NCBI RefSeq assembly: GCF_016801985.1
Contig: NZ_JAEVLS010000006.1
Location: forward strand, 310,001-374,000
Source of the DNA: Steroidobacter gossypii
GTDB lineage: Bacteria > Pseudomonadota > Gammaproteobacteria > Steroidobacterales > Steroidobacteraceae
Direction: 5' to 3'
Length of the DNA: 64,000 bases
The notes beneath the pieces were generated by a model, which did no database searches, was not told where the DNA came from, and worked only from the letters and a program-made list of their open reading frames with translations. The translations under genes and the position numbers were made by a program. Shown here in pieces: positions 12,052 to 33,341 of the stretch (position 1 is its first letter; each line of letters starts with the position of its first letter).

Positions 12052-12095
12052 GAGATTTCTCCAGTCGTATTCGTTGATAAGGTTCGAGCGCGACG

Positions 12096-15556: not shown

Positions 15557-16441
15557 TCAATGCACCTGGTGCGCGAGCTCGCTGCGTACCCGCTCGATGA
15601 CGGTGCTCCAGTCTGCCTCCCGAGGCTGACGGAACAGTCGCATCGTCGGATACCATGGCGAATCTTCTCGCCCCAGCATCCAACGCCAGTCGGCATGGTA
15701 GGGCAGCAGCAGCCACACCGGCAGTCCGAGCGCGCCTGCCAGGTGCGCCGTCATTGTGTCCACGGTGATGATCAGATCGAGCAGTTGCATGCGCGCAGCC
15801 ATCTCTGCGATGTCTCGCGATGCAATCGGCGCTGCGGGCAGCGCGCAGGTCGCTGGCGGATACTGCAAACTGAACCAGCGAACGTGAGTCAACGAAACCC
15901 ATGGCTGCAAGGCCGTGCCGGGCAGAGATCGTTTCGGATCCCATTCGCCGGCTGACCAGCACACTCCGATGCGCCGCCGGCGTCCCGTCGGCATGGCCCG
16001 GGTCGGTACATATATATAGGGCATCGGGCCAGGCAGCTCGTTGACATCCAGTCGCAGGGCGTGCGGCAGCTCCATGATTTCGATGTCGACGTCATAATCC
16101 AGATCCGGGTTGCCATCATGCAAAGGCAGCAGCCGGTCGATGCCGCGCACCGTTTGTAACAGCTTGAGCAGCGGTGGTTGTGCCCACAGGGTAGTTTCGG
16201 ATGCGCGCAAGCGCGGGTGAGCGAGCAATCTCACGAACTGCAGAGTGTCGCCGAGGCCGTGATAACAGCGCACGAATACGCGTCGACCTTCCAGCGGCGT
16301 GCCATCCCATACGAACTGTTCGTGACGCGGCCGATGAGTGCACACTTCGCCGGACTGCGTGCGCTCAGCCAGAATGCGGTCACAGATTGCCCATGCGGAC
16401 GCGAAGTCGCCCCGGAGCATGGCGTCGATCCACGCATCCAT
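15557..16441 (-). CDS. GT9-like glycosyltransferase fragment-type protein, last gene of the left cluster arm
   Basis: A 294-residue soluble protein resembling the catalytic part of TPR-linked GT9/GT41-like transferases. Signs are VFVRCYHGLGDTLQFVRLL near residue 55, GIDRLLPL, and the nucleotide-sugar side DTMTAHLAGALGLPVWLLLP near 228 with WRWML and SPWYPTMRLFRQ after it. The usual TPR repeats are missing; only one helix pair precedes the domain. It starts 6 bases after the deoB stop, which makes it the seventh and last gene of the leftward arm. A sugar transferase role is inferred; donor and acceptor are unknown. Confidence 0.7.
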   Translation of the reverse strand: MDAWIDAMLRGDFASAWAICDRILAERTQSGEVCTHRPRHEQFVWDGTPLEGRRVFVRCYHGLGDTLQFVRLLAHPRLRASETTLWAQPPLLKLLQTVRGIDRLLPLHDGNPDLDYDVDIEIMELPHALRLDVNELPGPMPYIYVPTRAMPTGRRRRIGVCWSAGEWDPKRSLPGTALQPWVSLTHVRWFSLQYPPATCALPAAPIASRDIAEMAARMQLLDLIITVDTMTAHLAGALGLPVWLLLPYHADWRWMLGREDSPWYPTMRLFRQPREADWSTVIERVRSELAHQVH

Positions 16442-16447
16442 GGCGGG

Positions 16448-17674
16448 TCACCATAGAAATGAATGACCATGGCCGCCGGACGGCAGCCCCAGATGTTGGG
16501 CCAGGGTCGCGCCCATATCCGCGAAGCTGTCCCGCCGGCCCAAGGAGCGCCGGCTTCGTTGCCCAGACGGCCCGAACGCGAGCACGGGCACGCACTCTCG
16601 CGTGTGGTCCGAACCGCTCCAGGTCGGATCGCAACCATGGTCGCCCGTGATGATGGCAAGGTCGCCCTCGTCCAGCTGCTGCAGAAATTCCGGCAGACGT
16701 GCGTCGAAGGCTTCCAAAGCGGCGGCGTAGCCCGGCACATCGCGACGGTGGCCGTACAGCGTGTCGAAGTCGACCAGGTTGACGAGCATCAAGCCGCCGT
16801 TGCCAAGGCGGCTCACGGCGTCGACCGCTTGGTCGAACACGGCGTCGTTATCTTCGCCCTTGAGCTCGCGGCCGGTGGCGGAGTGACAGAACAGATCGCC
16901 AATCTTGCCCACCGAGATCACGTCGCGACCTTGGTCCTGGGCGCGACTGAGCAACGTCGGGAACGGCGGGGGCACACCATAGTCGCGACGATTCGAAGTC
17001 CGTTGATAACCGCGCTCGGTAGTGATGAACGGGCGGGCGATGACTCTGCCGACCCGCATTTCGTCGAGCAGCTCACGCGCAATCTCGCAGGTTCGATACA
17101 GACGCTGCAGTCCAAAGGCCTGCTCGTGGGCCGCAATTTGAAACACGCTGTCCGCCGAGGTGTAGCAGATCGGCCAGCCGGTGCGCAGATGTTCATCGCC
17201 AAGCTCGGCGATGATTTGCGTTCCGGACGCATGTTTGTTGCCGAGCACGCCATCGAAGTCGGCGCGCTCGCACAGCTCGTCGATCAGCGCTCGCGGGAAG
17301 CATGGCTCGGTGCGTGGGAAGTAGGCCCATTCGAACTCCACCGGACTGCCGGCGATTTCCCAATGGCCCGATTGCGAATCCTTGCCCGTGGAAACCTCCG
17401 CCGCCGCGCCCGCATGGCCATGAAGCCAGGCCGACACGTCGAGGCCCGGCGCTGTCGAGCCCGTGGCAGCACGACAGCATTCTCCCAAGCCCAACGAGCT
17501 GAGATTTGGCAGCTTCAATGCGCCGTGACGCACGCCACTGCGATCTGCATCTCCGTGGGCGCAACGCTGCGCGATGTGACCTAACGTATCAGCGCCGCTG
17601 TCGCCGAAGGTGTCGGCGTCGGGCGCACCGCCCACTCCCAGAGAGTCGAGCACGATAATGAAAGCGCGGCTCAT
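16448..17674 (-). CDS. deoB: Phosphopentomutase DeoB
   Basis: DeoB interconverts ribose- or deoxyribose-1-phosphate and the 5-phosphate. This 408-residue alkaline-phosphatase-fold enzyme opens with the metal motif [15 protein letters not shown], in which Asp is a metal ligand, and has GADTLGHIA. The nucleophile region is [15 protein letters not shown] (Thr), and metal ligands are in [25 protein letters not shown] and SGSDHTRE. All expected motifs are intact. The ATG overlaps the stop of the preceding glycoside-hydrolase-like gene (ATGA). No nucleoside phosphorylase is adjacent. Its place inside a sugar cluster, next to a nucleotidyltransferase, suggests it supplies a pentose-1-phosphate there. 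Confidence 0.93.
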
Positions 17675-18600
17675 GCGACTGCCACTCGATTGGTTGATGG
17701 CTTGCTGCTCGTGGCCGGTGCGTACCGCTCCACCATGGTGGCGCAGAACTCGGCGAATCGTTGCGGCTCGCGCGGCGCACTGGTGTGGTGAGGCATGATG
17801 CCCAGATGTTCGGGCGTGAAGCAGAAGGTGACGGTCACGTCGAAGTCCTGCAGCGCCTCCATCTGGCGATCGAACCATGCGAGCGCGTTGGGCCGGAAAC
17901 TGTCGGCCCACGACAGGCCGGTGCGTAAGTGCCGCACACCCAGTCGCTTCAACCAGGTCACCGCCGGCTCGAGCCGGTGATCTTCGAAGTGAAACCACTG
18001 GCAGATGCCCATGGCCGGCGTGTACCGTGCGAAACGCTCCAGCGCCTGCTTCGGAGTGCCGTCCTCCTTCAGCAGGCCCATATAAAAGTGTCGGTAGTAC
18101 GAGGAGCCTTCGGCCTCGCGATGGCGCGTAGTGGCTGGCCAGGCGCGCGGCAGATCGTACAGGCTGTACCAATGGATGCGCGGCGCGTTGCCGATCAACA
18201 GCGCTGCGGTTCGATCCACTCCCCAGGCCTGCACTTCTTCGGCGCCGAAGCTGGAGACACCGACTTCGCTGACCCACACCGGCAGATGTGTCGCGGCCTG
18301 GATTTCCGCGATCTTTTGCGGCCATTCATCGATGCACCACAAATTCCAGTCGAGCGGAAAGCCGTGCACCGCCACGATATCGAGATGATCGAGCACGCCT
18401 CGCCTCGCCAGATTGTGCAGAAACGAGGCGTCTATGGGCGACATTCCGCCCAGCACGCGCGGCAGGTTTGGATTCGCGGCGCCGATCGCTCGCCCAGCGA
18501 GCGCCGCCATTTCGGCGAAGCGCGACCAATCGGGATCGACCTCCGGATCCCAGTGCGACTTGTTGTTCGGCTCGTTCCAGATCATCGCGGCTTCGATCAT
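17671..18600 (-). CDS. Clan GH-A glycoside-hydrolase-like protein with circularly permuted barrel order
   Basis: A 309-residue cytosolic protein resembling beta-xylosidases/GH39-type TIM barrels. The acid/base motif WNEPN (Glu10) appears at the very N-terminus and the nucleophile motif WVSEVG (Glu112) after it, then IHWYSLYDL for the last strand. The segment from about 196 to 295 ([41 protein letters not shown]) has the look of strands 1-3, which normally precede the WNEPN strand. The barrel order is therefore 4-8 then 1-3. No signal peptide is present, so it acts inside the cell, perhaps as a transglycosidase or editing enzyme. Both neighbours overlap it by ATGA. Confidence 0.75.
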
Positions 18601-19394
18601 GTGCGTACCTCGACTCTCGCCGACTCGCGGCTCGGGGCTTTGGATGCGTCGGACTCCACGGCGTCGCTCTCGCTGAGCATGAGCATGGCGGCGCGATAGC
18701 CTTGCAAGGTGCCGACATCGACGTAGGCTTCGCCCGCTTTGATGCCGAGGGCGCGGCCGCCGCCCGCGAGATACGCGTTGATCAAGGTGCCAAAATATTC
18801 GTCGCGCTGGTTACGTTGCTGCCAGAGGTTATGCAGTTCGTGCAGCACCGCGCCAGGCATTTTGAAAGCGCCCCAGATCCAGTGTGTGCCGGGGTCGTGT
18901 TGTTTCACCTTGATTTCGGTCACGTGCAACTCATCGTCCGCCAGCATCACGGCGTCGAACTGCTCCGGGCGCTCGACCGGGAACAATAGAAAAGACAAGG
19001 CGTCGTCCGGCAGTGCCGCCAGTCCATGGTCGGGGAACCAGATCGTGTCCGGCAACCCAATGGCGACGGTATCGTTGCGGGCCACTAGTGCGCGGGCTCG
19101 AAACACCGCGTCACACAATCCAGCGGGCTGGGGTTGCACGACATAGGCGAGATCGGCGCTGCCGAACTGACCGCCGAAGTACTCCAGAATGTCGGACTTG
19201 CCGGCGCCAATGACGAAACAGATCTTGTCGGCGCCGCCCCGGATCATGCGCTCCAGCAGGTATTCGCTGACGGCGCAAGGCCGCTGCGTGTCATGCAGGG
19301 TGCGCGAGCCCACCGGCAGCAGCTCTTTCGAGAAAGCCAATGGCTGAATGCGGCTGCCACGACCCGCCGCTGGAACGATGCCCCACATGCTCAT
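18597..19394 (-). CDS. Sugar-1-phosphate nucleotidyltransferase
   Basis: A 265-residue RmlA/GalU-type NTP transferase that would activate a sugar-1-phosphate to an NDP-sugar in the cytosol. The signature VPAAGRGSRIQPLAFSKELL with KELLPVG opens the protein. QPAGLCDAVFRAR and the metal site LPDTIWFPD follow, then a short C-terminal part ending in YVDVGTLQGYRAAM. Two start codons (19394 and 19388) are possible; the first overlaps the preceding stop (ATGA). The neighbouring deoB could supply ribose-1-phosphate and the adjacent epimerases could use the product, but sugar and nucleotide specificity cannot be read from sequence. Confidence 0.85.
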   Translation of the reverse strand: MSMWGIVPAAGRGSRIQPLAFSKELLPVGSRTLHDTQRPCAVSEYLLERMIRGGADKICFVIGAGKSDILEYFGGQFGSADLAYVVQPQPAGLCDAVFRARALVARNDTVAIGLPDTIWFPDHGLAALPDDALSFLLFPVERPEQFDAVMLADDELHVTEIKVKQHDPGTHWIWGAFKMPGAVLHELHNLWQQRNQRDEYFGTLINAYLAGGGRALGIKAGEAYVDVGTLQGYRAAMLMLSESDAVESDASKAPSRESARVEVRT

Positions 19395-20527
19395 GGTCTC
19401 GCTGCACCGAACGGTTGAACGGGTGGATGCATCGTCAGCGGGCGCGAGGGCGAGCGAAGCTCTTCCAGGTAGTGGATGAGCTGCTTGGCCCGGTGCAGGC
19501 TGGTGTGCTCGTCCAGAGTGCGTTCGCGCGCGGCGCGCCCGATGGCGCGCAATTCGGCATCGCTTCTATCCAGGGCAGCCAACGCGTCGGCGGTGTAGCG
19601 CGCCACCAGGATCTGCTCGCCGGGCGTGTAGAAATCGTCCAGGCCGCACCATTCGTCGGAGAGCACGGCGGCTCCGCAAGCCGCGGCCTCGAACAGCCGG
19701 CCGGACGGACACCAGCCCATGCGGGCCATGGGCTCGCGAGTGACATTCAGTGTGAGCCGCGACGACGAGAAGAACGCGGCGTGTTCCTGCGGCGGCAGGT
19801 GATGTACGAAATAAACGTTGTTGCTCCAGGGAAAGTGCTCCGGATATTGCGCGCCGCCGATCAGGAATTTCTGATCGGGACGCAGGCGGGCCGGCGCCAC
19901 GAACAGCTCTTCGAGCATCGCTTGCCGGTCGGCGGAGTACGTGCCCAGCCACGACAGCACGGCTTCGTAGCGCGAGGTTGGGGCGACCGGTTGATGAACG
20001 TCGGGATCGGCGTGGCCGTAGAGCGCGCGCACTCGATGAGCGCACAGATCGCTTCGCAGAGCTTCGAGCGCCGCGCCGCCCGTGTAACTCAGCACCAGGT
20101 CGAAGTCACCGAGTCCGCGCCAGGGAATGTAGGGAACCTGCTTGCCCGCGCGCAATGCATCCAGCGTGACCGGCGTATCCAGGTCATAGAACACGGCGAG
20201 CGGATGTTGCGCGTCCAGGATGGCGTCGGTTGCGGCCTGGGCATCGAAGCAATACGAGGACACGATGGCCGTATCGCAGCTGGCCAGCTCGCGTCGCACG
20301 CGTCCCTCGATGGTGGACCAGTCCGGATACAGCACCAGCTTGCTGTCGCCGAGCGAGTCTGGCAGCGCTGGCCAGTCGCGGCTGCTGGCGTAGTAGGAAA
20401 CATCGCGTTCGAAAAAGATGAACTCGTGGCCGAGTTGCGCCAATGCCTTACACAGGCCTCGCCACAGCGTCGCGTGGCCGTTGCCCCACGAAGAGCTGAT
20501 GGTCAGACCGAAGATCGCGATTCTCAT
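19391..20527 (-). CDS. CgeB-type glycosyltransferase (left-arm copy)
   Basis: A 378-residue soluble GT-B protein of the CgeB-like group. The N-terminal Rossmann half has FGLTISSSWGNGHATLW and GHEFIFFERD. The C-terminal half has WLGTYSADRQ, FLIGGAQYP, LTLNVTREPMARMGW and the donor-side SGRLFEAAACGAAVLSDEW with a TPGEQI loop. It is clearly paralogous to the protein at 30165-31298 and more loosely to that at 29042-30178. The ATG overlaps the histidine-phosphatase stop by ATGA. No membrane helix is seen, so it works on a soluble or peripheral acceptor. Sugar specificity is unknown. Confidence 0.8.
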   Translation of the reverse strand: MRIAIFGLTISSSWGNGHATLWRGLCKALAQLGHEFIFFERDVSYYASSRDWPALPDSLGDSKLVLYPDWSTIEGRVRRELASCDTAIVSSYCFDAQAATDAILDAQHPLAVFYDLDTPVTLDALRAGKQVPYIPWRGLGDFDLVLSYTGGAALEALRSDLCAHRVRALYGHADPDVHQPVAPTSRYEAVLSWLGTYSADRQAMLEELFVAPARLRPDQKFLIGGAQYPEHFPWSNNVYFVHHLPPQEHAAFFSSSRLTLNVTREPMARMGWCPSGRLFEAAACGAAVLSDEWCGLDDFYTPGEQILVARYTADALAALDRSDAELRAIGRAARERTLDEHTSLHRAKQLIHYLEELRSPSRPLTMHPPVQPFGAARP

Positions 20528-21123
20528 AAAGGTGCCCGCAGGTTGATGCCATCGATGCGTGGGCCCCAGTCGCTCAGGCTCACGCGACTCATGGACGCAG
20601 GGCTGATCGCCAGTCGCGCATAGGCCTCGATCGGCGCTTGCAGCCAGTGTAGCAGCGTGGCGCGAATCACTTCGGCGTGACTGACCATGACCATCGGACG
20701 ACCTGGAAATTTCTGCCGCAGCCGATGCAGTAAGTCCAGCACGCGCGCCTGCACGTCGCTGATCCGCTCGCCCGCCGGCGTTGCAGCTGCCTCGCGCTGC
20801 TCGTTCCATCGCCGCCAGTCTGGATCCCGGGCGAGCTCGCCGAATGTTTGACCCGACCAGTGGCCAAAGTCCAGTTCGTCGATCGCACCCGAGGTGACCA
20901 GCTCGCCCTGACAGCGGGCGGCGATCGCGCCGGCGGTCTGCTGCGCACGGCGACGCGGGCTGACCACGATCAATGTTTCCTGTTGGGGCTGGAGCACGCG
21001 CGCCATGGCTTCGGCTTCCCGTAGTCCGATCTCGGCAAGCGGTGCATCGACGGTGCGTCCGAAGAGCATCTCATCCATGCGCTCGCACGTGGCGTGGCGT
21101 ACGAGCACGAGCTCGTTGATCAT
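20524..21123 (-). CDS. Histidine phosphatase superfamily protein
   Basis: A 199-residue cytosolic enzyme with the catalytic LVRHA motif (His10, usual RHG changed to RHA) and the second His in [29 protein letters not shown] supplies the expected acid region. Members include phosphoglycerate mutase-like phosphatases and CobC-type enzymes. In this operon, directly after inositol-3-phosphate synthase, a plausible job is dephosphorylation of an inositol- or sugar-phosphate. This is inferred from position only. Its first 53 bases overlap the end of the synthase gene and its stop overlaps the next start. Confidence 0.82.
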
Positions 21124-22210
21124 GACTCTGTTCCTGAGGCGGTTGGCCGGCGATGAAGTCCAGGGTCAGCTGGCGGGCGACGTGATCGGTGAACTGTTGC
21201 GGCGGCGACTTCATGAAATAACTCGACGGTCCTGTCAGTGCGCCACCTACGCCGCGGTCCAGCGCCAGCTGCGCGCAGCGCACGGCGTCGATCACCACGC
21301 CGGCCGAGTTCGGAGAGTCCCACACCTCCAGCTTGAGCTCCACGTTCAGCGGCGAGCCGCCGAACGCCGTGCCCTCCATACGAATGTAGGCCCACTTGCG
21401 GTCGCTCAACCATTCCACGTGATCGCTGGGGCCGACGTGAATGGCGCCGGGCGGCACGTCGATCTGGCTGGTGACCGAGCGCGTCTTGGAGAGTTTTTTG
21501 GACACCAGGCGCTCGCGCTCCAGCATGTTCTTGAAATCGGCGTTGCCGCCGAAGTTGAGCTGATAGGTGTGGTCCAGACTCACGCCACGCTCGCGAAACA
21601 GATTGGCGAGCACCCGATGCACGATGGTGGCGCCCACCTGGCTCTTGATGTCGTCGCCCACCAGGGGCAGGCGCGCCACCTCGAAGCGCCGCCGCCAGTC
21701 CGCATCGGAAGCGATGAACACTGGAATGCAGTTGACGAAAGCACAGCCTGCCTCGAGCGCGCGCAAGGCATACCACTCGGTGGCACGTTGCGATCCCACC
21801 GGCAGGTAGGACACGAGGACTTGCGTGCCACTGTCTCGTAACACCTTCACGACGTCGCACTCGGCTGCGTCCGATTCGATCAGCTCGTCTTCCAGATACA
21901 TGCCGATGCCATCGAGCGTGCGGCCACGCGCGACTTTGACGCCGAGCGGAGGCAACGACGCGAACACCCTCGTGTTGTTGGGAGGGGCGAGCAGCGCTTC
22001 CGACAGATCTTTGCCGACCTTCTGAGCGGTGATGTCGAACGCCGAAGTGATTCGCACGTCACGCACGTGATAAGGACCGACGCGCGGATGCATCAGTCCT
22101 GGGATCACGGCGTCGTCGGCGGCGTCGCGGTAATAATGCAGGCCCTGCACGAAAGAGGAGGCGCAGTTGCCGGCGCCGACGATGCCCACGTTCACTGTTG
22201 TTGCGTTCAA
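21071..22210 (-). CDS. Inositol-3-phosphate synthase
   Basis: Converts glucose-6-phosphate to L-myo-inositol-1(3)-phosphate with bound NAD. The 379-residue form resembles the short actinobacterial-type enzymes. Motifs: [17 protein letters not shown] for [49 protein letters not shown] and [14 protein letters not shown], all intact. I chose the TTG at 22210 because a GGAG lies 6 bases upstream and homologues begin just before the NAD motif; an in-frame ATG at 22258 is the alternative. This is the first gene of the leftward arm. Inositol synthesis is uncommon in gammaproteobacteria, so it points to a specialised product. Confidence 0.9.
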
Positions 22211-22339
22211 TGCCGTCTCCGGTGCGATGGATCGCGAACAGGCTGATGCACGAAGCATGCAAACGAACAAAGAAGCGCGCGCGCTGGTAGCAAGTGCCAC
22301 TTCGCGTCGGTATATCGCCTGCCAATCGGGGCGCATACA

Positions 22340-22366
22340 TCGGTAACGTCTGCCCACCTCGGTAAC
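22340..22366. promoter_or_regulatory. Direct repeats in the divergent promoter of the glycoside cluster
   Basis: TCGGTAAC occurs twice, at 22340-22347 and 22359-22366, with starts 19 bases apart (nearly two helical turns), in the only intergenic space between the two arms of the cluster (22211-22508). Two identical 8-mers at that spacing could be a regulator site serving both directions. No regulator gene is inside the cluster, so the factor is unknown. Confidence 0.35.
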
Positions 22367-22508
22367 TTTTATTCCCGATGGATGCGAGCTTCTGCTGATT
22401 TTCCCCTGCTGCCGCGTTCACGAAGTGGCGGCACGCTTGTTGCTACTTACCTTGCATCTGGCTCAGCACAGTCGTGAGCCCTTACTGACAGCTGGCGAGG
22501 AGTACGTG

Positions 22509-23663
22509 GTGGCAAAGCTTTGGACATCGAACAATTCGATCGCCGGCAAAACGGTACTGGTGACGGGCGGGGCGGGCTTCATCGGTTCGCATGTGGCGAA
22601 CCTGCTGGCGGAAAACGGCGCGCGTGTGCGCGTGGTGGATGCGCTCGACGCGCAGGTGCACGGCGAGGAGCCGGGCTTTCCTTCACATCTGCACGCCGAT
22701 GTGGAGCGCATCGAAGGCGATATTCGCAATCGTGACACCTTGCGCTCGGCGCTCGCGGGCGTGTCGCATGTATGTCATCTGGCGGCCGCGGTGGGCGTCG
22801 GTCAAAGCATGTACGAGATCGAGCGTTACGTCGATGTGAACAATCGCGGTACAGCGCTGCTGCTCGAGGCATTGATCGATCATCCGTTGGAGCGGCTGGT
22901 GGTGGCCTCGAGCATGAGCGTTTATGGCGAAGGCCTGTATAGAGCGCGCAACCCCGGAGGCGGCGCGGATTATTGCGAGCCGTCACTGCGATCGCGTGAA
23001 CAGCTGGGCCGCGGCGAGTGGGAGATTCAATCGGAACACGGCACGCTGGTGCCGGTCGCGACGCCGGAAACCAAACATGTCGCACCGGCATCGGTGTATG
23101 CGCTGTCCAAGTACGATCAGGAGCAAATGTGCCTGATGTGCGGGGCTGCCTACGGCGTGCCGACGGTAGCGCTGCGTTTCTTCAATGCCTACGGCCCGTA
23201 TCAGGCCTTGTCGAATCCATATACCGGCGTGCTGGCGATCTTTGCGTCCCGTTGTCTCAATGGCAATCCGCCGCTGATCTTTGAAGACGGCTTGCAACGA
23301 CGCGACTTCGTCAGCGTGCGCGATGTCGCGCAAGCTTGTCAGCTGGCGCTGACCACCTCCGCGGTGGGCGAAATCTTCAACGTAGGCTCCGGCGAACCGC
23401 GCACCGTGCTGGACGTCGCCACCAGCGTGATCGACGCGGTGAATGCTCGCGTCGAGCCGAAAGTCACTGGCAAGTACCGCTGCGGCGACATCCGCCACTG
23501 CTTCGCCGATATCTCCAAGGCCGAACGGATGCTGGGCTATCAGCCGAAGGTAAAATTCGAGGAGGGCCTGCTGGAGCTGTCCGAGTGGCTGGCCGGCACA
23601 TCGGCGAACGACAATTTCATGCGGGCCAGCGCCGAGCTGGATCGCCGAGGGCTGACGCTGTGA
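22509..23663 (+). CDS. NAD-dependent sugar epimerase/dehydratase (first gene of right arm)
   Basis: An extended SDR of about 384 residues. GTG 22509 is chosen because GAGGAG ends 7 bases before it; GTG 22506 is an alternative. Features: VTGGAGFIGSH for NAD, HLAAAVGVGQS, SSMSVYGEG, catalytic YALSK (Tyr-x3-Lys), RFFNAYGPYQ and RRDFVSVRDVA. It resembles UDP-glucose/GDP-mannose-type 4-epimerases and nucleotide-sugar dehydratases, with an insertion of about 40 residues (GGGADYCEP to ATPETKH) before the catalytic Tyr. Probable role: remodelling an NDP-sugar for the cluster glycosyltransferases. It overlaps the next gene by GTGA. Confidence 0.87.
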   Translation: MAKLWTSNNSIAGKTVLVTGGAGFIGSHVANLLAENGARVRVVDALDAQVHGEEPGFPSHLHADVERIEGDIRNRDTLRSALAGVSHVCHLAAAVGVGQSMYEIERYVDVNNRGTALLLEALIDHPLERLVVASSMSVYGEGLYRARNPGGGADYCEPSLRSREQLGRGEWEIQSEHGTLVPVATPETKHVAPASVYALSKYDQEQMCLMCGAAYGVPTVALRFFNAYGPYQALSNPYTGVLAIFASRCLNGNPPLIFEDGLQRRDFVSVRDVAQACQLALTTSAVGEIFNVGSGEPRTVLDVATSVIDAVNARVEPKVTGKYRCGDIRHCFADISKAERMLGYQPKVKFEEGLLELSEWLAGTSANDNFMRASAELDRRGLTL

Positions 23664-24772: not shown

Positions 24773-24782
24773 GAGAGCGATC

Positions 24783-25760
24783 ATGAGCGCCATACAACAT
24801 GCCGCCACCTTGGTGCGGCCGATGACCACGCGAGTGCGTGAGATCGAAATCCCAGAGCCTGCCGCCAACGAAGTGCGCGTGCGCTTACAAGGCTGCGGAA
24901 TCTGCGCCTCGGGCTTGCCGGTGTGGGAGGGACGTGACTGGTTCAAATATCCGCTCGAGGCTGGCTCGCCCGGGCATGAAGGCTGGGGGCTGGTGGATGC
25001 GGTCGGCCCGGGGATCGACGACATCGAGGTAGGCCAGCGTGTTGCGATGATGTCGGGTCACGCGTACGCCGAATATGACATTGCTTCGCGCGACTGCGTG
25101 GTGCCGCTACCGGAAGAGCTGGACGATGAGCCGTTTCCGGGCGAGCCGTTCGGCTGCGCCATGAATATCTTCGATCGCAGCGACATTCACAGCGGCCACA
25201 ACGTGGCGGTGGTCGGCGGTGGTTTCCTCGGCTTGTTGTTGACGCAGCTCGCCGCCGACGCCGGAGCGCACGTGGTGGTGCTGTCGCATCGCGAGTTCGC
25301 ATTGCAGTTGGCGCTCACCATGGATGCAGAAGATACGATTGCAACTCAGGACGACGGCCACGACGCCGAGCGCGCGCTGCAGCTCACCGGCGGGCGAGGA
25401 TTCGATCGCGTCATCGAAGTGGCCGGACTGCAGTCGGCCCTGGATCTTGCGAGTGAGATCACCGCCGAGCACGCGCGACTCATCATCGCCGGATATCACC
25501 AGGACGGCCCGCGCCAGGTGAACATGCAGCAGTGGAACTGGCGCGGTCTCGACGTGATCAATGCGCACGAGCGCACCATGGACCGCTACGTCAGCGGAGT
25601 GCAGAAGGCCATTCAGGCGGCGCTCGAGGGCCGACTCGATCCGTTCCCGTTGCTGACGCATACAGTGTCCCTCGGCGCCATGGATCAAGGTTTCAGACTG
25701 ATGCGCGAGCGGCCGGAAGGTTTCGTCAAGGCGTTGATGTTGAACGAGAGGCCGTTGTGA
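24783..25760 (+). CDS. Zinc-type alcohol dehydrogenase (MDR superfamily)
   Basis: A 325-residue medium-chain dehydrogenase: GroES-like half with GCGICASGLPVWEG (catalytic Cys) and SPGHEGWG (His-Glu), then a Rossmann half with VVGGGFLGLLLTQLAADAG. The four-Cys structural zinc lobe is missing and the protein is short, as in sorbitol- or inosose-type sugar dehydrogenases of small size. Oxidation of a cyclitol or NDP-sugar alcohol is plausible in this cluster next to the Gfo/Idh enzyme. The GTGA overlap with the next gene ties both to one transcript. Confidence 0.85.
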   Translation: MSAIQHAATLVRPMTTRVREIEIPEPAANEVRVRLQGCGICASGLPVWEGRDWFKYPLEAGSPGHEGWGLVDAVGPGIDDIEVGQRVAMMSGHAYAEYDIASRDCVVPLPEELDDEPFPGEPFGCAMNIFDRSDIHSGHNVAVVGGGFLGLLLTQLAADAGAHVVVLSHREFALQLALTMDAEDTIATQDDGHDAERALQLTGGRGFDRVIEVAGLQSALDLASEITAEHARLIIAGYHQDGPRQVNMQQWNWRGLDVINAHERTMDRYVSGVQKAIQAALEGRLDPFPLLTHTVSLGAMDQGFRLMRERPEGFVKALMLNERPL

Positions 25761-26803
25761 GCGCGCGCTTGGAAACGCCGGCCAGCGCCCTGCGCCAGGT
25801 CGCGCCATTGATCGCTTCACCGCCACGCGTTGCATTCGTGGGGCTGGGCTGGATCGGTCGTAAGCGGCTCGATGCCGCGGCGGCCGAGAGCGATCTGATC
25901 GAGGTTGCTGCGCTGGTGGACAGCGATGTTGGGCGCTTGCAGGCCGCGGCGAGGGAGTATCCGGAAGCGGCACCGTGCTCGACCATCGAGGACGTACTGG
26001 ACGAGGGCGTCGACGCAGTCGTGATTGCAACTCCCAATGGCTTGCACGCGAGGCAGGCGATTGCCTGCCTGGAGCGCGGGCTGCCGGTGTTCTGCCAGAA
26101 ACCTCTCGCTACCACGCTCGCCGATGTGCAACGGGTGATCGCGGCGGCACGGGCTGCGGATCGTTTGCTCGGCATCGATTTTTGTTATCGGCACATCAGC
26201 GGCATGTCCGAGCTGCGCCGGCGAGTTCTGTCCGGCGCCATCGGCGACATCGTCGCCGTCGACCTGTGTTTCCACAACGCCTACGGGCCCGATAAATCCT
26301 GGTGCCAGGATCGCTTGCTGGCGGGCGGCGGATGCCTCCTCGATCTGGGGGTGCACCTGCTGGATCTGTCTTTGTGGGTGCAAGGCATGCCGCCCACCGA
26401 GCGGGTTCGAAGCCGTTTGTTTGCGCAGGGGGAGCCCGTGCAGGGAGCCAGCGGGCCGCTGGAAGATCTGGCGTATGCCGAGTTCATCCAGGCGAACGGG
26501 GCCATCGTTCGCCTGGCGTGCTCATGGCATGCACAGATCGGCCAGCCCGCGCAGATATGCATGTCGTTGTCTGGTACGCGCGGCGGGGCCTCGTGGACCA
26601 ATGTCGACGGCTCGTTCTATGACTTCGATACCCAAATGTTTGTTGGCACGAATCGCGAGCTGCTCGGCGCCTCGCGAGATGACTGGGGGTCGCGTGCGTT
26701 ATGCGTCTGGCTGGCGCAACTGCGAGAAAGCAATCGATTCGATGCCGAGGCGGAGCACATCGTGCGCAGCGCTGCCCTCATCGACGAGGTGTACGCCGCA
26801 TGA
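25757..26803 (+). CDS. Gfo/Idh/MocA family oxidoreductase
   Basis: A 348-residue NAD(P)-dependent sugar or inositol oxidoreductase. The N-terminal Rossmann motif is FVGLGWIGRKRL, then VIATPNGLHA and the catalytic-lysine motif FCQKPLATT (usual EKP changed to QKP). The C-terminal domain has GGGCLLDLGVHLLDL, a family hallmark. Family members include inositol 2-dehydrogenase. Because the cluster also makes inositol phosphate, an inositol-derived substrate is an attractive inference. It starts with GTG on the previous stop and ends with an ATGA overlap into the GT4 gene. Confidence 0.87.
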   Translation: MSARLETPASALRQVAPLIASPPRVAFVGLGWIGRKRLDAAAAESDLIEVAALVDSDVGRLQAAAREYPEAAPCSTIEDVLDEGVDAVVIATPNGLHARQAIACLERGLPVFCQKPLATTLADVQRVIAAARAADRLLGIDFCYRHISGMSELRRRVLSGAIGDIVAVDLCFHNAYGPDKSWCQDRLLAGGGCLLDLGVHLLDLSLWVQGMPPTERVRSRLFAQGEPVQGASGPLEDLAYAEFIQANGAIVRLACSWHAQIGQPAQICMSLSGTRGGASWTNVDGSFYDFDTQMFVGTNRELLGASRDDWGSRALCVWLAQLRESNRFDAEAEHIVRSAALIDEVYAA

Positions 26804-27924
26804 AGGTGCTGATGACAGCCGATTCGGTCGGCGGCGTGTGGACCTATGCGCTGGATCTGTGCGCGGCGTTGCATGAATTCCATGTTTGTTTTGTCTTGGT
26901 CACCATGGGGCCGCGCCCCTCCAACGAGCAGCGCGCAGCGGCTCGGACTCTGCCCAACGTAGAGCTGGTGGAGTCGGACTTCCGCTTGGAATGGATGGAG
27001 GACCCCTGGTCCGATGTGACTGCCGCGGGCGACTTTTTGCTGGAACTGGCGAGCGCCAAGGCTGTCGATCTCGTTCACTTGAATGGCTACACCCATGCAG
27101 CGCTGGCTTGGCGGCACCCAGTGGTCTGCGTGGCGCACTCGTGCGTGGCCACCTGGTGGCAGGCTGCGCACGGTGTACCGGCGCCAGCGCAGTGGGATGT
27201 GTACCGGAGTCATGTCGCTCGCGGTTTGAACTCCGCTGACGCCGTTGTCGCGCCGACATTTGCGTTCGTGAAGCAGTTGCGCGAGTGCTACGAGTTCGAT
27301 CGACCCGTTCGGGTCATTCACAACGCCCGGGTGCAAGCCGCTGAAAGTTCGGCTGCGATGAAAAAGATTCAGGGCGATGCCATCGTGCTCGCTTGCGGTC
27401 GCCCGTGGGACGCTTCCAAGAACATGCGCGTGCTCGACGATGCGTCGGCTGGAGCGTCCTGGCCGGCGTATGTCGTGGGCGCAGTCGTTGGGCCCGACGG
27501 GCAATCGTTTGCTCCTACGTCGCTCGTATGTCTTGGCGCCCTATCGTCCAAAGAAGTGGAATCGTGGCTGCGTAAAGCGGCGATTTTCGTTCACCCTGCG
27601 CTTTACGAACCCTTCGGCTTGGCCGTGCTCGAAGCTGCGTTGGCCGGCTGCGCTCTGGTGCTGGCGGATATCCCCACGCTTCGAGAGCTCTGGAATGGCG
27701 CTGCCGAGTTCTTCGATCCGCATGACAGTCGACAGCTGCGCGCCGTGATCGATGAGCTCATCGCACAGCCGACGCGATGCGCATCTCTCGGCGCGGCTGC
27801 TCGCGAGCGCGCCACTCGGTATCGCATCGAAGCGACCGGGGCGGCGTACATGGACTTGTACGGAGCGTTGCTTCGTTCCAATGCAAGTGCGCCAGCCTCG
27901 GACGACAAGCGAGCCGTGGCATGA
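26800..27924 (+). CDS. GT4-type glycosyltransferase
   Basis: A 374-residue GT-B enzyme with retaining GT4 marks: opening MTADSVGGVWTYALDL (glycogen-synthase-like GGVWTY), ACGRPWDASKN, and the donor motif HPALYEPFGLAVLEAALAGC containing the E-x7-E pair. No membrane helix. It is the only canonical GT4 in the cluster; the other four transferases are of CgeB type. Overlaps on both sides are ATGA. Donor and acceptor are unknown. Confidence 0.85.
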   Translation: MKVLMTADSVGGVWTYALDLCAALHEFHVCFVLVTMGPRPSNEQRAAARTLPNVELVESDFRLEWMEDPWSDVTAAGDFLLELASAKAVDLVHLNGYTHAALAWRHPVVCVAHSCVATWWQAAHGVPAPAQWDVYRSHVARGLNSADAVVAPTFAFVKQLRECYEFDRPVRVIHNARVQAAESSAAMKKIQGDAIVLACGRPWDASKNMRVLDDASAGASWPAYVVGAVVGPDGQSFAPTSLVCLGALSSKEVESWLRKAAIFVHPALYEPFGLAVLEAALAGCALVLADIPTLRELWNGAAEFFDPHDSRQLRAVIDELIAQPTRCASLGAAARERATRYRIEATGAAYMDLYGALLRSNASAPASDDKRAVA

Positions 27925-29045
27925 AGCTGGTCCTGTTCTATCACTCGTTGATTTCCGACTGGAATCACGGCAATGCTCATTTTCTGCGAGGTGTGGTCAG
28001 CGAGTTGCTCGATCGCGGACATCAGGTGGATGTTTACGAGCCCGAGTCCGGCTGGAGTCTGAGCAACTTGCTGGCCGAACGAGGTGAGGCCGCCATCGAC
28101 GATTTTCACCTCGCGTTTCCCGAGCTGCGCAGCGTCCGATACGACGCAGCGACGCTCGATCTCGACCAGGCGTTGGAAAATGCCGACGCCGTCATTGTTC
28201 ACGAATGGAACCCGCCGGAGTGGATCTCGTCCATTGGCGAGTGCGCCGGGCGCCTTGGCTGCACAGCGTTGTTCCATGACACGCATCACCGCAGTGTCAC
28301 TGACGCGGCTACGATGGCATCTATCGACCTGAGCCATTACGACGGCGTGCTGGCGTTCGGCCAGGCCGTCGCGGACCAATATGTCAGGCACGGGTGGGCA
28401 GCGCATGCCTGGGTGTGGCACGAAGCCGCGGATTTGAGGCGTTTCAAGCCGATGCCTGCCGCCGAACAGCAGAAGGATCTGGTGTGGATCGGCAACTGGG
28501 GCGACGACGAGCGCAGCGCCGAACTGGCGGAATTCTTGATCGAGCCCGTCGGGCAGCTGGCACTGAGTGCGACAGTGCACGGCGTGCGCTATCCCCAACA
28601 GGCCTTGACCCTGTTGCAACAGGCAGGCATCGAGTATCGAGGCTGGCTGCCGAACCATCGCGTTCCGGAAACATTTGCGAAGCATCGCTGCACTGTGCAC
28701 GTCCCTAGGCAGACATATGCCAGGCAACTGCACGGCATTCCCACGATCCGCATGTTCGAAGCGCTGGCATGCGGCATTCCATTGATCAGCGCACCGTGGC
28801 AAGACGCCGAGCTGCTGTTCCGTCCGGGCACCGATTATCTCGTCGCCGCGGATGGCAATGAGATGCAACGACATCTCCGCGCCGTGCTGAACGACAGCGA
28901 GCTGGCGCAGAGCCTGGTCCGGAACGGCTTGGAAACGATTCGAGCTCGTCACTCCTGCGCGCATCGCGTCGACGAGTTGTTGCACATTCTTACGACGTTG
29001 CGGGCGCAGCCGTTGCGCCGTTCCGTTGGCGGAGGGCTGGTATGA
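27921..29045 (+). CDS. CgeB-type glycosyltransferase (divergent member)
   Basis: A 374-residue soluble GT-B protein. The N-terminal part begins VLFYHSLISDWNHGNAHFLRG, with a WNHGN segment like the WGNGH of its neighbours. The C-terminal half has IGNWGDDERSAEL, GVRYPQQAL, HVPRQTYARQLHGIPTIR and the donor-side MFEALACGIPLISAPW. It is the most divergent of the four CgeB-like proteins here. ATGA overlaps link it to genes on both sides. It probably adds a sugar to a soluble intermediate. Confidence 0.8.
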   Translation: MKLVLFYHSLISDWNHGNAHFLRGVVSELLDRGHQVDVYEPESGWSLSNLLAERGEAAIDDFHLAFPELRSVRYDAATLDLDQALENADAVIVHEWNPPEWISSIGECAGRLGCTALFHDTHHRSVTDAATMASIDLSHYDGVLAFGQAVADQYVRHGWAAHAWVWHEAADLRRFKPMPAAEQQKDLVWIGNWGDDERSAELAEFLIEPVGQLALSATVHGVRYPQQALTLLQQAGIEYRGWLPNHRVPETFAKHRCTVHVPRQTYARQLHGIPTIRMFEALACGIPLISAPWQDAELLFRPGTDYLVAADGNEMQRHLRAVLNDSELAQSLVRNGLETIRARHSCAHRVDELLHILTTLRAQPLRRSVGGGLV

Positions 29046-30178
29046 CTGCAAAAGTGACCATGGCAATGTTTGGCTCCAGCCTGGTGTCGGCGTACTGGAA
29101 CGGGGCGGCGACCTACTATCGCGGCATGATCCGCGCCCTGAACGAGTGCGGCTTCGACGTTACTTTCTACGAGCCCGACGCATTCGAGCGCCAGCAGCAT
29201 CGCGACATGGCCGATCCGCCCTGGGCCAAAGTGGTGGTTTATCCAGCCACCCAGCAGGGCCTGCATGCCGCACTCGAACAGGCGCGCGAGGCGGACATCA
29301 TTGTCAAAGCGAGTGGCGTCGGAGTGTTCGATGAGGAACTGGAGGCGGAAGTGCCGCGACTGCGCCGGGCCTCCAATCTGACCGTGTTCTGGGATGTGGA
29401 CGCTCCGGCGACGCTGCAGCGCATGCGAGCCGATTCAGCCGATCCGTTTCATTCCCAGGTGCGCAACTACGACCTGGTGCTCACCTACGGCGGCGGCCCG
29501 CCAGTCGTGCAGGCTTATGTGAACTTTGGGGCGCGCCGGTGCGTTCCTATCTACAACGCTCTCGACCCAACGACGCATCACCCCGTACCGGCGGAGTCAC
29601 GTTTCAGTGGCGCGTTGGGTTTTCTAGGCAACCGGTTGCCCGATCGTGAGGCCCGTGTGCACGAATTTTTTCTCAAGCCGGCGTCGCTGCTGCCCCAGCA
29701 GACTTTTCTGATGGGCGGATCGGGCTGGGAGAGCAATGTCGCGCTCACCCCGAACATCAATTATGTCGGCCACGTGTACACGCGCGATCACAATGCGTTC
29801 AACTGCTCGACCTTGGCGGTGCTGAACATCAATCGCGACAGCATGGCGCAGGTGGGTTATTCGCCGCCCACCCGGGTCTTCGAAGCAGCGGGCGCTGGCG
29901 CCTGTTTGGTCTGCGATGCGTGGGAAGGATTGGAGCAGTTTCTGGAGCCCGGCAAGGAAGTGCTGCGTGTGGCGAATGGCGAGGAGGTGGCTGCGGTGTT
30001 GCCGCAGCTAACCGAGCAACAGGCGCGCCGCATCGGCGAACGCGCGCGTCGGCGGTTGTTGAACGAGCACACTTACCAGCACCGTGCCCAGCAAGTGTCG
30101 GCATTGCTGGTGGAGCAATTGGCCAGCCGCGCCCGGCCGGCCAGATATCACGAGGAGAGGCATCGTGCGGCGCTCTGA
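29042..30178 (+). CDS. CgeB-type glycosyltransferase (second right-arm copy)
   Basis: A 378-residue GT-B protein with SSLVSAYWNGAATYYRG at the start, LTYGGGPPVV, GFLGNRLPDREARV, FLMGGSGWE, LAVLNINRDSMAQVGYSPPT and the donor-side RVFEAAGAGACLVCDAW. It shares block order with the proteins at 19391-20527 and 30165-31298, so these three probably arose by duplication. The start overlaps the upstream stop (ATGA). Its last 14 bases overlap the next gene, whose ribosome site lies inside this coding end. Confidence 0.8.
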   Translation: MTAKVTMAMFGSSLVSAYWNGAATYYRGMIRALNECGFDVTFYEPDAFERQQHRDMADPPWAKVVVYPATQQGLHAALEQAREADIIVKASGVGVFDEELEAEVPRLRRASNLTVFWDVDAPATLQRMRADSADPFHSQVRNYDLVLTYGGGPPVVQAYVNFGARRCVPIYNALDPTTHHPVPAESRFSGALGFLGNRLPDREARVHEFFLKPASLLPQQTFLMGGSGWESNVALTPNINYVGHVYTRDHNAFNCSTLAVLNINRDSMAQVGYSPPTRVFEAAGAGACLVCDAWEGLEQFLEPGKEVLRVANGEEVAAVLPQLTEQQARRIGERARRRLLNEHTYQHRAQQVSALLVEQLASRARPARYHEERHRAAL

Positions 30179-31298
30179 CGAGATTATTTTCATCGGCCTG
30201 TCGATCACTTCGTCCTGGGGCAACGGCCACGCCTCGACCTATCGGTCGCTGCTCCGCGGATTGCATCGGCGCGGCCACAAAGTGCTGTTTCTGGAGCGGG
30301 ATCAACCCTGGTACGCCAGCAATCGAGACGCGCCGATCCTGCCGTTCTGCCAGTCGCGTTTGTATGCGGACGTGGACGAGCTGCGCAGCCGTTTCACCCC
30401 TCGCATTCGCGCAGCTGCGGCGGTGATCGTGGGCTCCTACGTGGACGACGGCAGAAATGTATGCGATTGGGTGCTCGAGCACGCCACCGGCGTTAAGGCG
30501 TTCTACGATATCGATACGCCCGTGACCCTGGCCAGGCTTCGCGACGACAGTTGCGAATATCTGGCGGCATCGCAGGTCCCCGACTTCGATCTCATGTTGA
30601 GCTTCACGGGCGGGCCGACGTTGCAACGCTTGGAGCGCGATTTCGGAGCGAAATGCGCGCGGCCTTTGTATTGCAGCGTGGATGTCGATCAGCATCAGCC
30701 CAAGGACGTGCGGCGGGATATCGAACTGGGCTATCTCGGCACGTACAGCGACGATCGTCAGCCGGCGCTGGAAGAATTGTTGAACGAGCCCGCACGGCGC
30801 ATGCCCAAGCGCCGCTTCGCTGTGGTCGGCGCGCAGTATCCGCCGCACATTGCCTGGCCGAAGAACGTCCAGCGCATCGATCATATGGCGCCGGGCTCAC
30901 ATGCTCAGTTCTACGGTCGTCAGCGCTTCACGTTGAATCTGACACGCGCCGACATGCGGAAGGCCGGTCACTCGCCGAGCGTGCGGCTTTTCGAAGCAGC
31001 GGCCTGCGGTACACCCATCATCTCGGACGAGTGGGTCGGCATCGACGAGGTGCTGGAGCCGGGCAAGGAGATTCTGCTGGCCAGCTCGACCGAGGACGTA
31101 ACGAGATATCTGGATGAGGTGAGTGACGAACAGGCTCGGCAGATCGCCGTTGCGGCGCGCGAGCGTGTCTGCGCCGAACACAGCAGCGTGCATCGGGCCG
31201 AGGAGCTGGAACGTTATCTGAATGCAGCGCGCGGCGGACCGGAGCGTAGGAAGGTCATCGGTCTCGGCGATGCCGAGCGCGCCGTTGCGGCACCCTGA
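30165..31298 (+). CDS. CgeB-type glycosyltransferase (right-arm paralogue of the left-arm copy)
   Basis: A 377-residue protein. The GTG at 30165 follows a strong GAGGAGAGG within the end of the previous gene. Shared blocks with the left-arm protein at 19391-20527 are FIGLSITSSWGNGHAST, FLERDQPWYAS, YLGTYSDDRQ, VVGAQYPPHI, FTLNLTRADMRKAGHSPS and RLFEAAACGTPIISDEW. The two copies therefore sit at opposite ends of the divergent cluster. Probably adds a sugar residue similar to that added by its paralogue. Confidence 0.82.
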   Translation: MRRSDEIIFIGLSITSSWGNGHASTYRSLLRGLHRRGHKVLFLERDQPWYASNRDAPILPFCQSRLYADVDELRSRFTPRIRAAAAVIVGSYVDDGRNVCDWVLEHATGVKAFYDIDTPVTLARLRDDSCEYLAASQVPDFDLMLSFTGGPTLQRLERDFGAKCARPLYCSVDVDQHQPKDVRRDIELGYLGTYSDDRQPALEELLNEPARRMPKRRFAVVGAQYPPHIAWPKNVQRIDHMAPGSHAQFYGRQRFTLNLTRADMRKAGHSPSVRLFEAAACGTPIISDEWVGIDEVLEPGKEILLASSTEDVTRYLDEVSDEQARQIAVAARERVCAEHSSVHRAEELERYLNAARGGPERRKVIGLGDAERAVAAP

Positions 31299-31308
31299 GG
31301 GATCCACC

Positions 31309-32094
31309 ATGCCAGTGCAGGCGAGGATTCGACAGCAGATCGCGGAGCTCGGCCCGTGGTTTCATAATCTGCATCTACCGGACGGGACCGAGACGTCGCC
31401 CGATCATCCCTTCGGCGATTTTCCCAGCTTCAAGTGGCAGCATGTCGCAGCCGCCGTGCCCGAGGATCTATCCGGCTGGACGGTGCTCGACATTGGTTGC
31501 AACGCCGGGTTTTACAGCTTCGAGCTGGCCCGGCGCGGTGCTCAGGTCTTGGGCGTCGATGTGGAACCGATGTATGTGCGCCAGGCGCGCTGGGCGGCTC
31601 GCGAGCTAGGCCTCCACGATCGCGTCGATTTCGTCGAAGGAGATGTCTACAGTCTGCTCACGGCGCGACAGCACTACGACCTGGTGTGGTTCACGGGCGT
31701 GTTCTATCACCTGCGCTATCCGACGCTGGCGCTCGATCTGGTGCGCCGGGTGACCGATCGACTCATGGCGTTTCAAAGCATGACCATGCCAGGCGAGGCG
31801 CGCGATATCGCGCCGCCCGACGTGCAGTTGAATCGTCGCGAGCTGCTGCTCCAGGAAGCCTGGCCGAAGATGGCGTTCGTCGAGCATCGCGTCGCCGACG
31901 ACCAAAGCAACTGGTGGGTGCCGAATGCGAGCTGCGTGGAAGCATTGTTGCGCTCGGCCGGTTTCGAAGTGGTGTCGCGACCCGAGCACGAGTTCTACAT
32001 CTGCAAGCCGGTGGCCGTGCCCAAAGAATCCGGTCACGATCTGATGCGAGTGCGAGCGGTGATCGACAGCGCCGGCGTGCACGGCGCTTCGTGA
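31309..32094 (+). CDS. SAM-dependent methyltransferase, last gene of the right arm
   Basis: A 261-residue class I methyltransferase with motif I VLDIGCNAGFYSFELA, acidic LGVDVEP, and VWFTGVFYHLRYP as motif IV. The start at 31309 has GAGG 8 bases upstream. The N-terminal IRQQIAELGPWFHNLHLPDG and the tail WWVPN..C resemble tRNA-CmoB-like and TIGR04290-type methyltransferases. From memory, the latter are known mainly from uncharacterised glycosyltransferase clusters; this should be checked. Likely function: O-methylation of the finished glycoside. It lies 10 bases after the previous stop and ends 3 bases from the convergent Crp/Fnr gene. Confidence 0.83.
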   Translation: MPVQARIRQQIAELGPWFHNLHLPDGTETSPDHPFGDFPSFKWQHVAAAVPEDLSGWTVLDIGCNAGFYSFELARRGAQVLGVDVEPMYVRQARWAARELGLHDRVDFVEGDVYSLLTARQHYDLVWFTGVFYHLRYPTLALDLVRRVTDRLMAFQSMTMPGEARDIAPPDVQLNRRELLLQEAWPKMAFVEHRVADDQSNWWVPNASCVEALLRSAGFEVVSRPEHEFYICKPVAVPKESGHDLMRVRAVIDSAGVHGAS

Positions 32095-32871: not shown

Positions 32872-32919
32872 GCAGGCGAGTGCTCTCAATTCTTCTACCC
32901 GTTTGCTGTCGTTGTCGGT

Positions 32920-33327
32920 CTAGGTGTTGGAAGTCGTTTCCGAGCGAACGCAGCTGTGCACGGCCTGCAGCAACGCCCGCAGGTTGACCGGCTTTTCGAG
33001 CCGGACCACGCCGGTGAATTCTTCCGGCAACACCGAGTCGTCGTAGCCGGTGGCGAAAATCGCCGGCGTGTCGCGTTCGCGCAGTTCGTTCGCCAGGCCG
33101 AACGCCAGATCGCCCTGCAGGTTGATATCCAGCACGGCGCAATCGATGGGCTGGGTCCTGGCCAGGCGTCGACCCTGTTCGACATCCGGTGAGGGGCCGA
33201 TCACCTCGGCGCCGTGTGCACGCAACGTGTTGCAGATTTCATCGGCGATGAAGTAGTCGTCCTCGACCACCAACACGCGCACGCCGTCGAGGGTCACTTG
33301 GTCTTGTATGTTTCGCGGAGTTGTCAC
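32920..33327 (-). CDS. Stand-alone receiver (CheY-like) response regulator
   Basis: About 135 residues with one receiver domain: acidic pair VEDD near 22-24, phospho-Asp67 (VLDINLQGD), the switch Thr in FATGYDD and Lys in RLEKPV. GTG 33327 is preferred because GAGGAG ends 6 bases before it. No output domain is present. It follows the HWE kinase by 14 bases and precedes the Crp/Fnr gene, so it probably takes phosphate from that kinase and acts by protein contact or as a phosphate sink. Confidence 0.85.
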   Translation of the reverse strand: MTTPRNIQDQVTLDGVRVLVVEDDYFIADEICNTLRAHGAEVIGPSPDVEQGRRLARTQPIDCAVLDINLQGDLAFGLANELRERDTPAIFATGYDDSVLPEEFTGVVRLEKPVNLRALLQAVHSCVRSETTSNT

Positions 33328-33341
33328 GGTGGTCTCCTCGG

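Follow-up and report, generated by a model that had tools for sequence, protein, structure and literature searches.

A widespread, modular gene cluster in Steroidobacter gossypii with a circularly permuted glycosidase and a predicted methylated oligoglycoside product

The locus and its genes

The window analysed here, a stretch of 64,000 nucleotides from the 7.1-Mb genome of Steroidobacter gossypii (G000:C28:310001-374000), carries at positions 15557-32094 sixteen genes in two divergent arms. They code for an inositol-3-phosphate synthase (INO1), a histidine phosphatase, enzymes of nucleoside diphosphate (NDP) sugar metabolism, six actual or possible glycosyltransferases, a glycosidase and a methyltransferase (Table 1). 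An earlier note, made from the sequence alone, had proposed that they constitute a single pathway for a glycoside that had not been characterized, and all sixteen were recovered in the order and arms that it gave. We show that related clusters, modular in make-up and sometimes plasmid-borne, are widespread and probably move horizontally, and that the glycosidase of the window cluster, termed GHp below, is a complete circularly permuted TIM barrel.

The genes are tightly packed, if less uniformly than the earlier note had it, with nearly every pair overlapping by ATGA or GTGA: among the 14 neighboring pairs, nine share a 4-nt overlap, two overlap by more (INO1 and the histidine phosphatase by 53 nt, CgeB-c and CgeB-d by 14 nt) and three are separated by gaps of 6-10 nt. 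INO1 ends at 21071 and may start either at TTG 22210 or at ATG 22258, so that the divergent space, previously put at 298 bases, is about 250-298 bases long. Domain searches or, for GHp, alignments upheld the enzyme identities of fifteen genes; the remaining one, the GT9-like call, is weak. As SDR2 is closest to CDP-tyvelose 2-epimerase, it is likely to be a C2-epimerase of a nucleotide sugar. The best NCBIfam model for the Gfo/Idh protein is inositol 2-dehydrogenase, and the scyllo-inosose dehydrogenase IolM ranks third for the MDR protein, both far below cut-off. The methyltransferase is a member of TIGR04290, a hypothetical NCBI family (hypothetical equivalog).

Table 1. Features of the cluster and of its regulatory surroundings (window coordinates)
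Feature	Positions	Strand	Evidence and remarks
Sigma-54 activator, AAA+ domain and Fis-type helix-turn-helix	14390..15541	+	PF00158 217 bits
GT9-like protein (weak)	15557..16441	-	PF01075 19.5 bits, cut-off 22; relatives in 8 of the other 24 tabulated loci
DeoB phosphopentomutase	16448..17674	-	TIGR01696 448 bits, above cut-off 341; sole DeoB match in the genome
GHp, circularly permuted clan-A-type glycoside hydrolase	17671..18600	-	E10 in NEP, E112 in SEVG
Sugar-1-phosphate nucleotidyltransferase	18597..19394	-	PF00483 33.6 bits, cut-off 21.2; always with CgeB-a
CgeB-a, CgeB-type glycosyltransferase	19391..20527	-	PF13524 133.5 bits
Histidine phosphatase, CobC / MSMEG_4193 / GpgP-like	20524..21123	-	PF00300 151 bits; all NCBIfam models below cut-off
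INO1, inositol-3-phosphate synthase, actinobacterial (mycothiol) type	21071..22210	-	TIGR03450 509 bits, below cut-off 638; PF01658 above cut-off
Divergent promoter space	22211..22508
Sigma-54-like -24/-12 site CGGCACGCTTGTTGC	22429..22443	+	1 mismatch; identical in G001 and G011
SDR1, NDP-sugar epimerase/dehydratase	22509..23663	+	PF01370 173 bits
SDR2, nearest CDP-tyvelose 2-epimerase	23660..24772	+	9rl0 300 bits, 1orr 272 bits
MDR dehydrogenase	24783..25760	+	PF00107 63 bits; IolM model 83 bits, cut-off 450
Gfo/Idh/MocA oxidoreductase	25757..26803	+	PF01408 90 bits; IolG model 90 bits, cut-off 355
GT4 glycosyltransferase	26800..27924	+	PF13439, PF00534; weak MshA/PimA similarity
CgeB-b glycosyltransferase	27921..29045	+	PF13524 122.6 bits
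CgeB-c glycosyltransferase	29042..30178	+	PF13524 131.6 bits
CgeB-d glycosyltransferase	30165..31298	+	PF13524 130.9 bits
S-adenosylmethionine (SAM) methyltransferase TIGR04290	31309..32094	+	328.1 bits, above cut-off 300

Distribution and conserved core

Two samples of related loci were assembled. The 25 tabulated loci comprise 17 genomes with a TIGR04290 match above cut-off, seven plasmid copies and the window; two further TIGR04290 loci lie outside this table, namely that of G005, with eight cluster genes on an 8.8-kb contig, and that of G234, where the match is below cut-off and no cluster surrounds it. The 80 GH-centred loci are the best 80 of at least 506 stretches coding for GHp relatives, which were found when genome contigs were scanned with two GH patterns, so that a single gene may be represented twice. 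They are biased to close relatives, and extend at most some 10 kb to either side of the GH gene, so that absences in them may reflect truncation. TIGR04290 in the first sample and the GH in the second are present by construction, and four loci are shared (L087, L088, L103 and L149 correspond to G011, G001, G013 and G110). Genes were assigned by comparing the open reading frames (ORFs) of all these loci with the window and sister genes using BLASTP. Pieces under 8 kb were skipped; the GH of G110 was placed through L149 and the INO1 of G016 by a genome-wide search, and the histidine phosphatase count does not cover G016. A scan of the loci for further conserved genes was cluttered by antisense ORFs and not exhaustive, and we make no claim about transporters beside other clusters.

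The synteny check put forward in the earlier note came out in its favor: the gene set recurs in all 25 tabulated loci and, in part, in all 80 GH-centred ones. SDR1, GT4, CgeB-b, CgeB-c and CgeB-d are found in 25 of the 25 tabulated loci and SDR2 in 24, being unassigned in Azospirillum. An SDR resembling UDP-glucuronate decarboxylase is present in 21 and absent from the window. GHp and INO1 are joined to the other gene group in 21 of the 25, in several gene orders. As the genes other than those used for selection recur in this manner, their linkage is real and beyond chance, which strongly supports a coherent pathway. A search of 60 genomes chosen as relatives gave 6 with TIGR04290 above cut-off, and a search of 398 taken from the phylum gave 14 (the window's own genome is in both sets); the window methyltransferase matches 133 plasmid records at E 1e-20, distributed over Sinorhizobium (66), Rhizobium (35), Roseomonas (10), Azospirillum (5), Paracoccus (5) and others. 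The nearest named relatives by GH identity, within the best 80 stretches, are Peristeroidobacter agariperforans (87%) and Steroidobacter agaridevorans (86%). In the open-licence literature we found neither a description of the cluster or a characterized product, nor a paper for the family names TIGR04290 or TIGR04295; the portions available of the Ramlibacter genome paper (PMC3164672) and of a paper on Ensifer aridi (PMC8877191) do not describe it either.

The glycosidase is a circularly permuted barrel

That the GH is permuted, as the earlier note had proposed, was confirmed by alignments in which its halves match unpermuted proteins in reversed order. Residues 7-184 of GHp match residues 124-299 of the GH domain in a GH-SDR2 fusion of R. 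etli (E 1e-24), while residues 192-293 match residues 12-115 of the same domain (E 8e-11). A profile of 36 hand-picked GHp proteins recovered PslG, which we take to be a GH39-type glycosidase, with E 4.3e-7 and the same reversal, the WNEPN and SEVG motifs being aligned; profile positions 3-191 fall on PslG 132-329 (independent E 0.00025) and positions 200-296 on PslG 25-131, the latter weak when taken alone (independent E 14). When the window protein is reordered it aligns with PslG as one stretch, 10-286 on 26-320, with E 5.2e-8. The AlphaFold model has eight strands (mean pLDDT 81.5, pTM 0.84), which by these alignments run from beta-4 to beta-8 and then from beta-1 to beta-3, a departure from the usual order of beta-1 to beta-8. 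Foldseek and VIA-align searches with this model recovered many unrelated, generic TIM barrels at similar Z, which is the expected outcome when the chain is permuted; neither PslG nor any GH39 chain appeared among the matches listed.

Both catalytic-type glutamates are invariant in a second hand-picked set of 41 GH proteins (41/41). Identity of 69-87% across classes rules out a pseudogene or chance ORF, and a missed upstream start is likewise ruled out, as 18600 is the first start codon after an in-frame stop. An unpermuted GH domain fused to SDR2 occurs in 4 of the 25 tabulated loci (X. sacchari, R. etli, G324 and G374). INO1 is present where the GH is permuted and absent where it is not, a state that requires three changes on the SDR1 tree (a quick-method tree of 77 rows, 69 of them labelled, with 12 long branches flagged). 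We found no report of circular permutation in clan GH-A in the open-licence literature.

Interchangeable and optional modules

Every tabulated locus contains exactly one of two systems, which is the MDR and Gfo/Idh pair in 14 cases and TIGR04295 in the remaining 11. Among the GH-centred loci MDR was found in 29, Gfo/Idh in 31 and TIGR04295 in 18, with neither system in the stretch covered in 31 and both in none. In the window itself, no ORF matches the TIGR04295 protein of L044, and MDR and Gfo/Idh occur instead. The system state needs six changes on the SDR1 tree, at least four of them forced by well-supported branches. Since two unrelated systems have been repeatedly exchanged at one place, a shared step is the best explanation, and they probably carry out the same reaction. 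The TIGR04295 protein of Azospirillum has a radical-SAM domain above the Pfam cut-off and a B12-binding domain below it; CxxxCxxC is kept in all four TIGR04295 proteins examined and DxHxxG is missing in two. We infer that a radical-SAM epimerase on the one hand and an oxidation-reduction pair on the other are the simplest match for a common step.

A second module consists of CgeB-a and the nucleotidyltransferase, which in the GH-centred loci occur together in 59, are both missing in 21 and are never found singly. DeoB lies within the locus solely where this pair is present (19 of 59), and where the pair lacks a DeoB in the cluster one would thus be predicted elsewhere in the genome. Among 18 genomes, one DeoB was found in 11/11 with the pair (6 in the cluster, 5 elsewhere) as against 3/7 without it. 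A further 49 genomes, searched from 50 of the 80 GH-centred loci chosen by hand, gave one DeoB in 31/32 with the pair (9 in the locus, 22 not) and in 4/17 without. Pooled, these amount to 42/43 against 7/24 (Fisher p 1.6e-9, kinship ignored), and none of the 67 genomes has two copies. The sole exception, Bradyrhizobium cenepequi, has the pair and no DeoB match in its genome; a 31-residue deoB remnant (E 0.003) lies between its GHp and SDR1 genes (L155, between 10948 and 11117). It is probable that pentose-1-phosphate made by DeoB feeds the nucleotidyltransferase and CgeB-a.

As to the acceptor, 79 of the 80 GH-centred loci combine INO1 with the permuted GH, the exception (L133) ending at a contig end just before the GH. 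Among the cluster genomes searched throughout, INO1 is missing from G324 and G374 and present in all of the other 16; it was found in none of five genomes without TIGR04290 above cut-off. This makes an inositol acceptor plausible, and the cyclitol suggested in the earlier note stands to that extent; it need not extend to the four sister clusters (X. sacchari, R. etli, G324 and G374) that have no INO1, histidine phosphatase or GHp.

Many alphaproteobacterial copies also carry, often directly after GHp, a module of GT4, GNAT, SAM methyltransferase and PIG-L deacetylase genes (e.g. L130:10869-14886), with at least one gene in 30 of the 80 GH-centred loci (GT4 in 28, PIG-L deacetylase in 17). It resembles the logic of mycothiol synthesis minus the ligase. 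This module is not beside the window cluster, and the window genome codes for nothing closely related to its glycosyltransferase (29% at best).

Regulation and genomic surroundings

EcfG is the sigma factor of the general stress response. We scanned the promoter-facing gaps of loci taken as alphaproteobacterial with a motif of this type (consensus GGAAC N15-18 YGTT), leaving out L051, L059 and L060 with the gammaproteobacterial loci although they are not gammaproteobacterial. The motif occurs in 53 of 175 gaps, as against 1.2 expected from single-base shuffles, and by gene in 30/68 gaps before INO1, 22/59 before SDR1 and 1/48 before others. Microvirga predominates among the matches, with Bradyrhizobium, Sinorhizobium, Mesorhizobium and others also represented; a few are almost 400 bases away from the gene and could be fortuitous.

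In the window a sigma-54-like site precedes SDR1 (Table 1), with about 0.02 expected per shuffle of the divergent space and three such sites in the whole window. A perfect site precedes the first cluster gene of X. sacchari. Sites with two mismatches number three in G013, over a longer stretch in which 0.6 are expected, and one in L095 (0.24 expected). The gene for a sigma-54 activator adjoins the cluster in the window, in X. sacchari and, by BLAST, in G001, G011 and G013. It probably drives the SDR1 arm in the window's group.

Downstream of the cluster (32098-34499) lie genes for a Crp-type regulator, a response regulator and an HWE histidine kinase, and the Crp-type gene is conserved at 91% in G001 and G011. 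Upstream, 11293-12438 codes for a weakly ferritin-like protein (DUF892/Ferritin below cut-off). Cytochrome oxidase genes occur near the cluster in both the window (38797-43706) and R. etli (L045:19702-24942), possibly by chance. A protein of about 583 residues with no Pfam family above cut-off adjoins the cluster in 9 of the 25 tabulated loci (for example L044:19763-21517, L046:6028-7776 and L048:6438-8198); on visual inspection it contains a DEGPGLSGSS stretch reminiscent of phosphoribosyltransferases.

Proposed product and its alternatives

With moderate confidence we predict that the product of the cluster is a methylated hetero-oligoglycoside, formed inside the cell under stress and most likely built on an inositol acceptor. 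INO1 would supply inositol-3-phosphate. The phosphate group would be taken off by the histidine phosphatase, either ahead of the first sugar transfer or following it, as happens early in the synthesis of mycothiol or glucosylglycerate. GT4 together with CgeB-b, CgeB-c and CgeB-d would then build the conserved core from NDP-sugar donors shaped by SDR1 and by SDR2 as a C2-epimerase type enzyme. DeoB and the nucleotidyltransferase may generate an NDP-pentose for addition by CgeB-a. The MDR and Gfo/Idh pair, or TIGR04295 in its stead, would perform one common step, most simply epimerization of a sugar or cyclitol carbon. TIGR04290 would methylate the product, and the permuted, retaining-type GH might trim or transglycosylate it in the cytosol. 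In the window's group the SDR1 arm would be driven by the sigma-54 activator.

Several observations weigh against this proposal. Four of the 25 tabulated loci lack a cluster INO1 and histidine phosphatase, and the two of these whose genomes were searched, G324 and G374, are devoid of INO1 altogether, so that inositol cannot be assumed for every version of the cluster. Among the loci behind the EcfG counts are many from related Microvirga and a few that are repeated, and the expectation comes from single-base shuffles only. No Pfam GH family scores above cut-off with GHp, native or reordered (best PF11790, 17.1 bits, cut-off 21). The association of DeoB with the CgeB-a pair, when restricted to six tree-independent pairs (51 rows), gave 3.8 in the same and 0 in the opposite direction with a median p of 0.125; phylogeny may account for it. 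Finally, pyruvyl transferases accompany 3 of the 25 tabulated loci and L158, and the X. sacchari copy lies near lipopolysaccharide genes, both of which fit a surface glycan.

A surface glycan, glycolipid or protein glycan exported by general machinery coded elsewhere is indeed the main rival, one that we consider rather unlikely. Besides the last two observations, it draws on the polysaccharide pyruvyl transferase and FrhB-like protein attached to the clusters of Paracoccus and Sinorhizobium (L047:23402-25839 and L046:775-3265) as well as to those of G441 and L158, and on PslG, the nearest solved relative of GHp, which serves exopolysaccharide synthesis. Against it, and in agreement with the earlier note as to Wzx, Wzy and ABC exporters, the 16 proteins include no transporter, be it a flippase or an ABC exporter, and no polymerase or polyprenyl-phosphate transferase (export genes were not sought in the rest of the genome), and nine ORFs scanned in the right flank contain no exporter family at E 1e-5. 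A crude hydropathy scan of the 16 proteins yielded no N-terminal segment above 1.6, no signal peptide and no multi-pass protein, with a single internal window above 1.6 in each of GT4 (1.98) and MDR (1.63). These absences support a cytosolic pathway, and the support for the cytosolic location inferred in the earlier note is of a negative kind.

A mycothiol-like small molecule, in which a glycosyl-inositol would be dephosphorylated, in some genomes deacetylated and acylated, and then further glycosylated, seems to us improbable. It accords with an INO1 nearest to the mycothiol INO1 model, a phosphatase near MSMEG_4193 and GpgP, a GT4 weakly like MshA and the further module described above, mostly placed just after GHp. 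That module is however missing beside the window cluster, and a mycothiol locus proper can be rejected, given INO1 at 509 bits against 638, GT4 at 31 bits against the MshA cut-off of 462.5 and no MshC-like ligase among the 16 genes. Two unrelated operons sharing a promoter space by chance, as the absence of the INO1, histidine phosphatase and GHp group from 4 of the 25 tabulated loci might suggest, are very improbable in the face of the 21 loci that join them in different gene orders.

If the predicted inositol oligoglycoside is correct, we may tentatively be dealing with a new class of stress-induced cytosolic compounds in rhizobia, Microvirga, relatives of Roseomonas and some gammaproteobacteria, made with interchangeable epimerization systems, a housekeeping DeoB recruited for an NDP-pentose and a permuted GH that edits or transglycosylates. 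The cluster is carried by many soil, plant-associated and some skin bacteria, and its modular swaps turn the pathway into testable steps: the shared reaction, DeoB as a source of sugar nucleotides and the reason for the barrel permutation. Should the product help cells to withstand drying or salt, it would be of relevance to rhizobial inoculants.

Comparison with known systems

The clusters with TIGR04295 (B12_rSAM_oligo, a hypothetical equivalog) have the same core genes as the window cluster, which differs in having MDR and Gfo/Idh in its place. Mycothiol biosynthesis employs INO1, MshA, a phosphatase, MshB and MshD; the window cluster likewise joins INO1, a phosphatase and a GT4, but lacks MshC and MshB and has many more glycosyltransferases along with NDP-sugar enzymes. 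PslG is the nearest solved GH relative of GHp, whose halves stand in reversed order relative to it; the reordered barrel aligns over PslG residues 26-320 with both catalytic-type glutamates matched. GH70 belongs to a clan different from that of GHp. GH70 glucansucrases are a naturally permuted GH13 barrel, cut close to beta-3/beta-4, and GHp is similar to them as a natural circular permutation of a GH TIM barrel with a similar cut, differing in that GH70 starts at alpha-3 and GHp at beta-4, without extra domains (PMC11046441).

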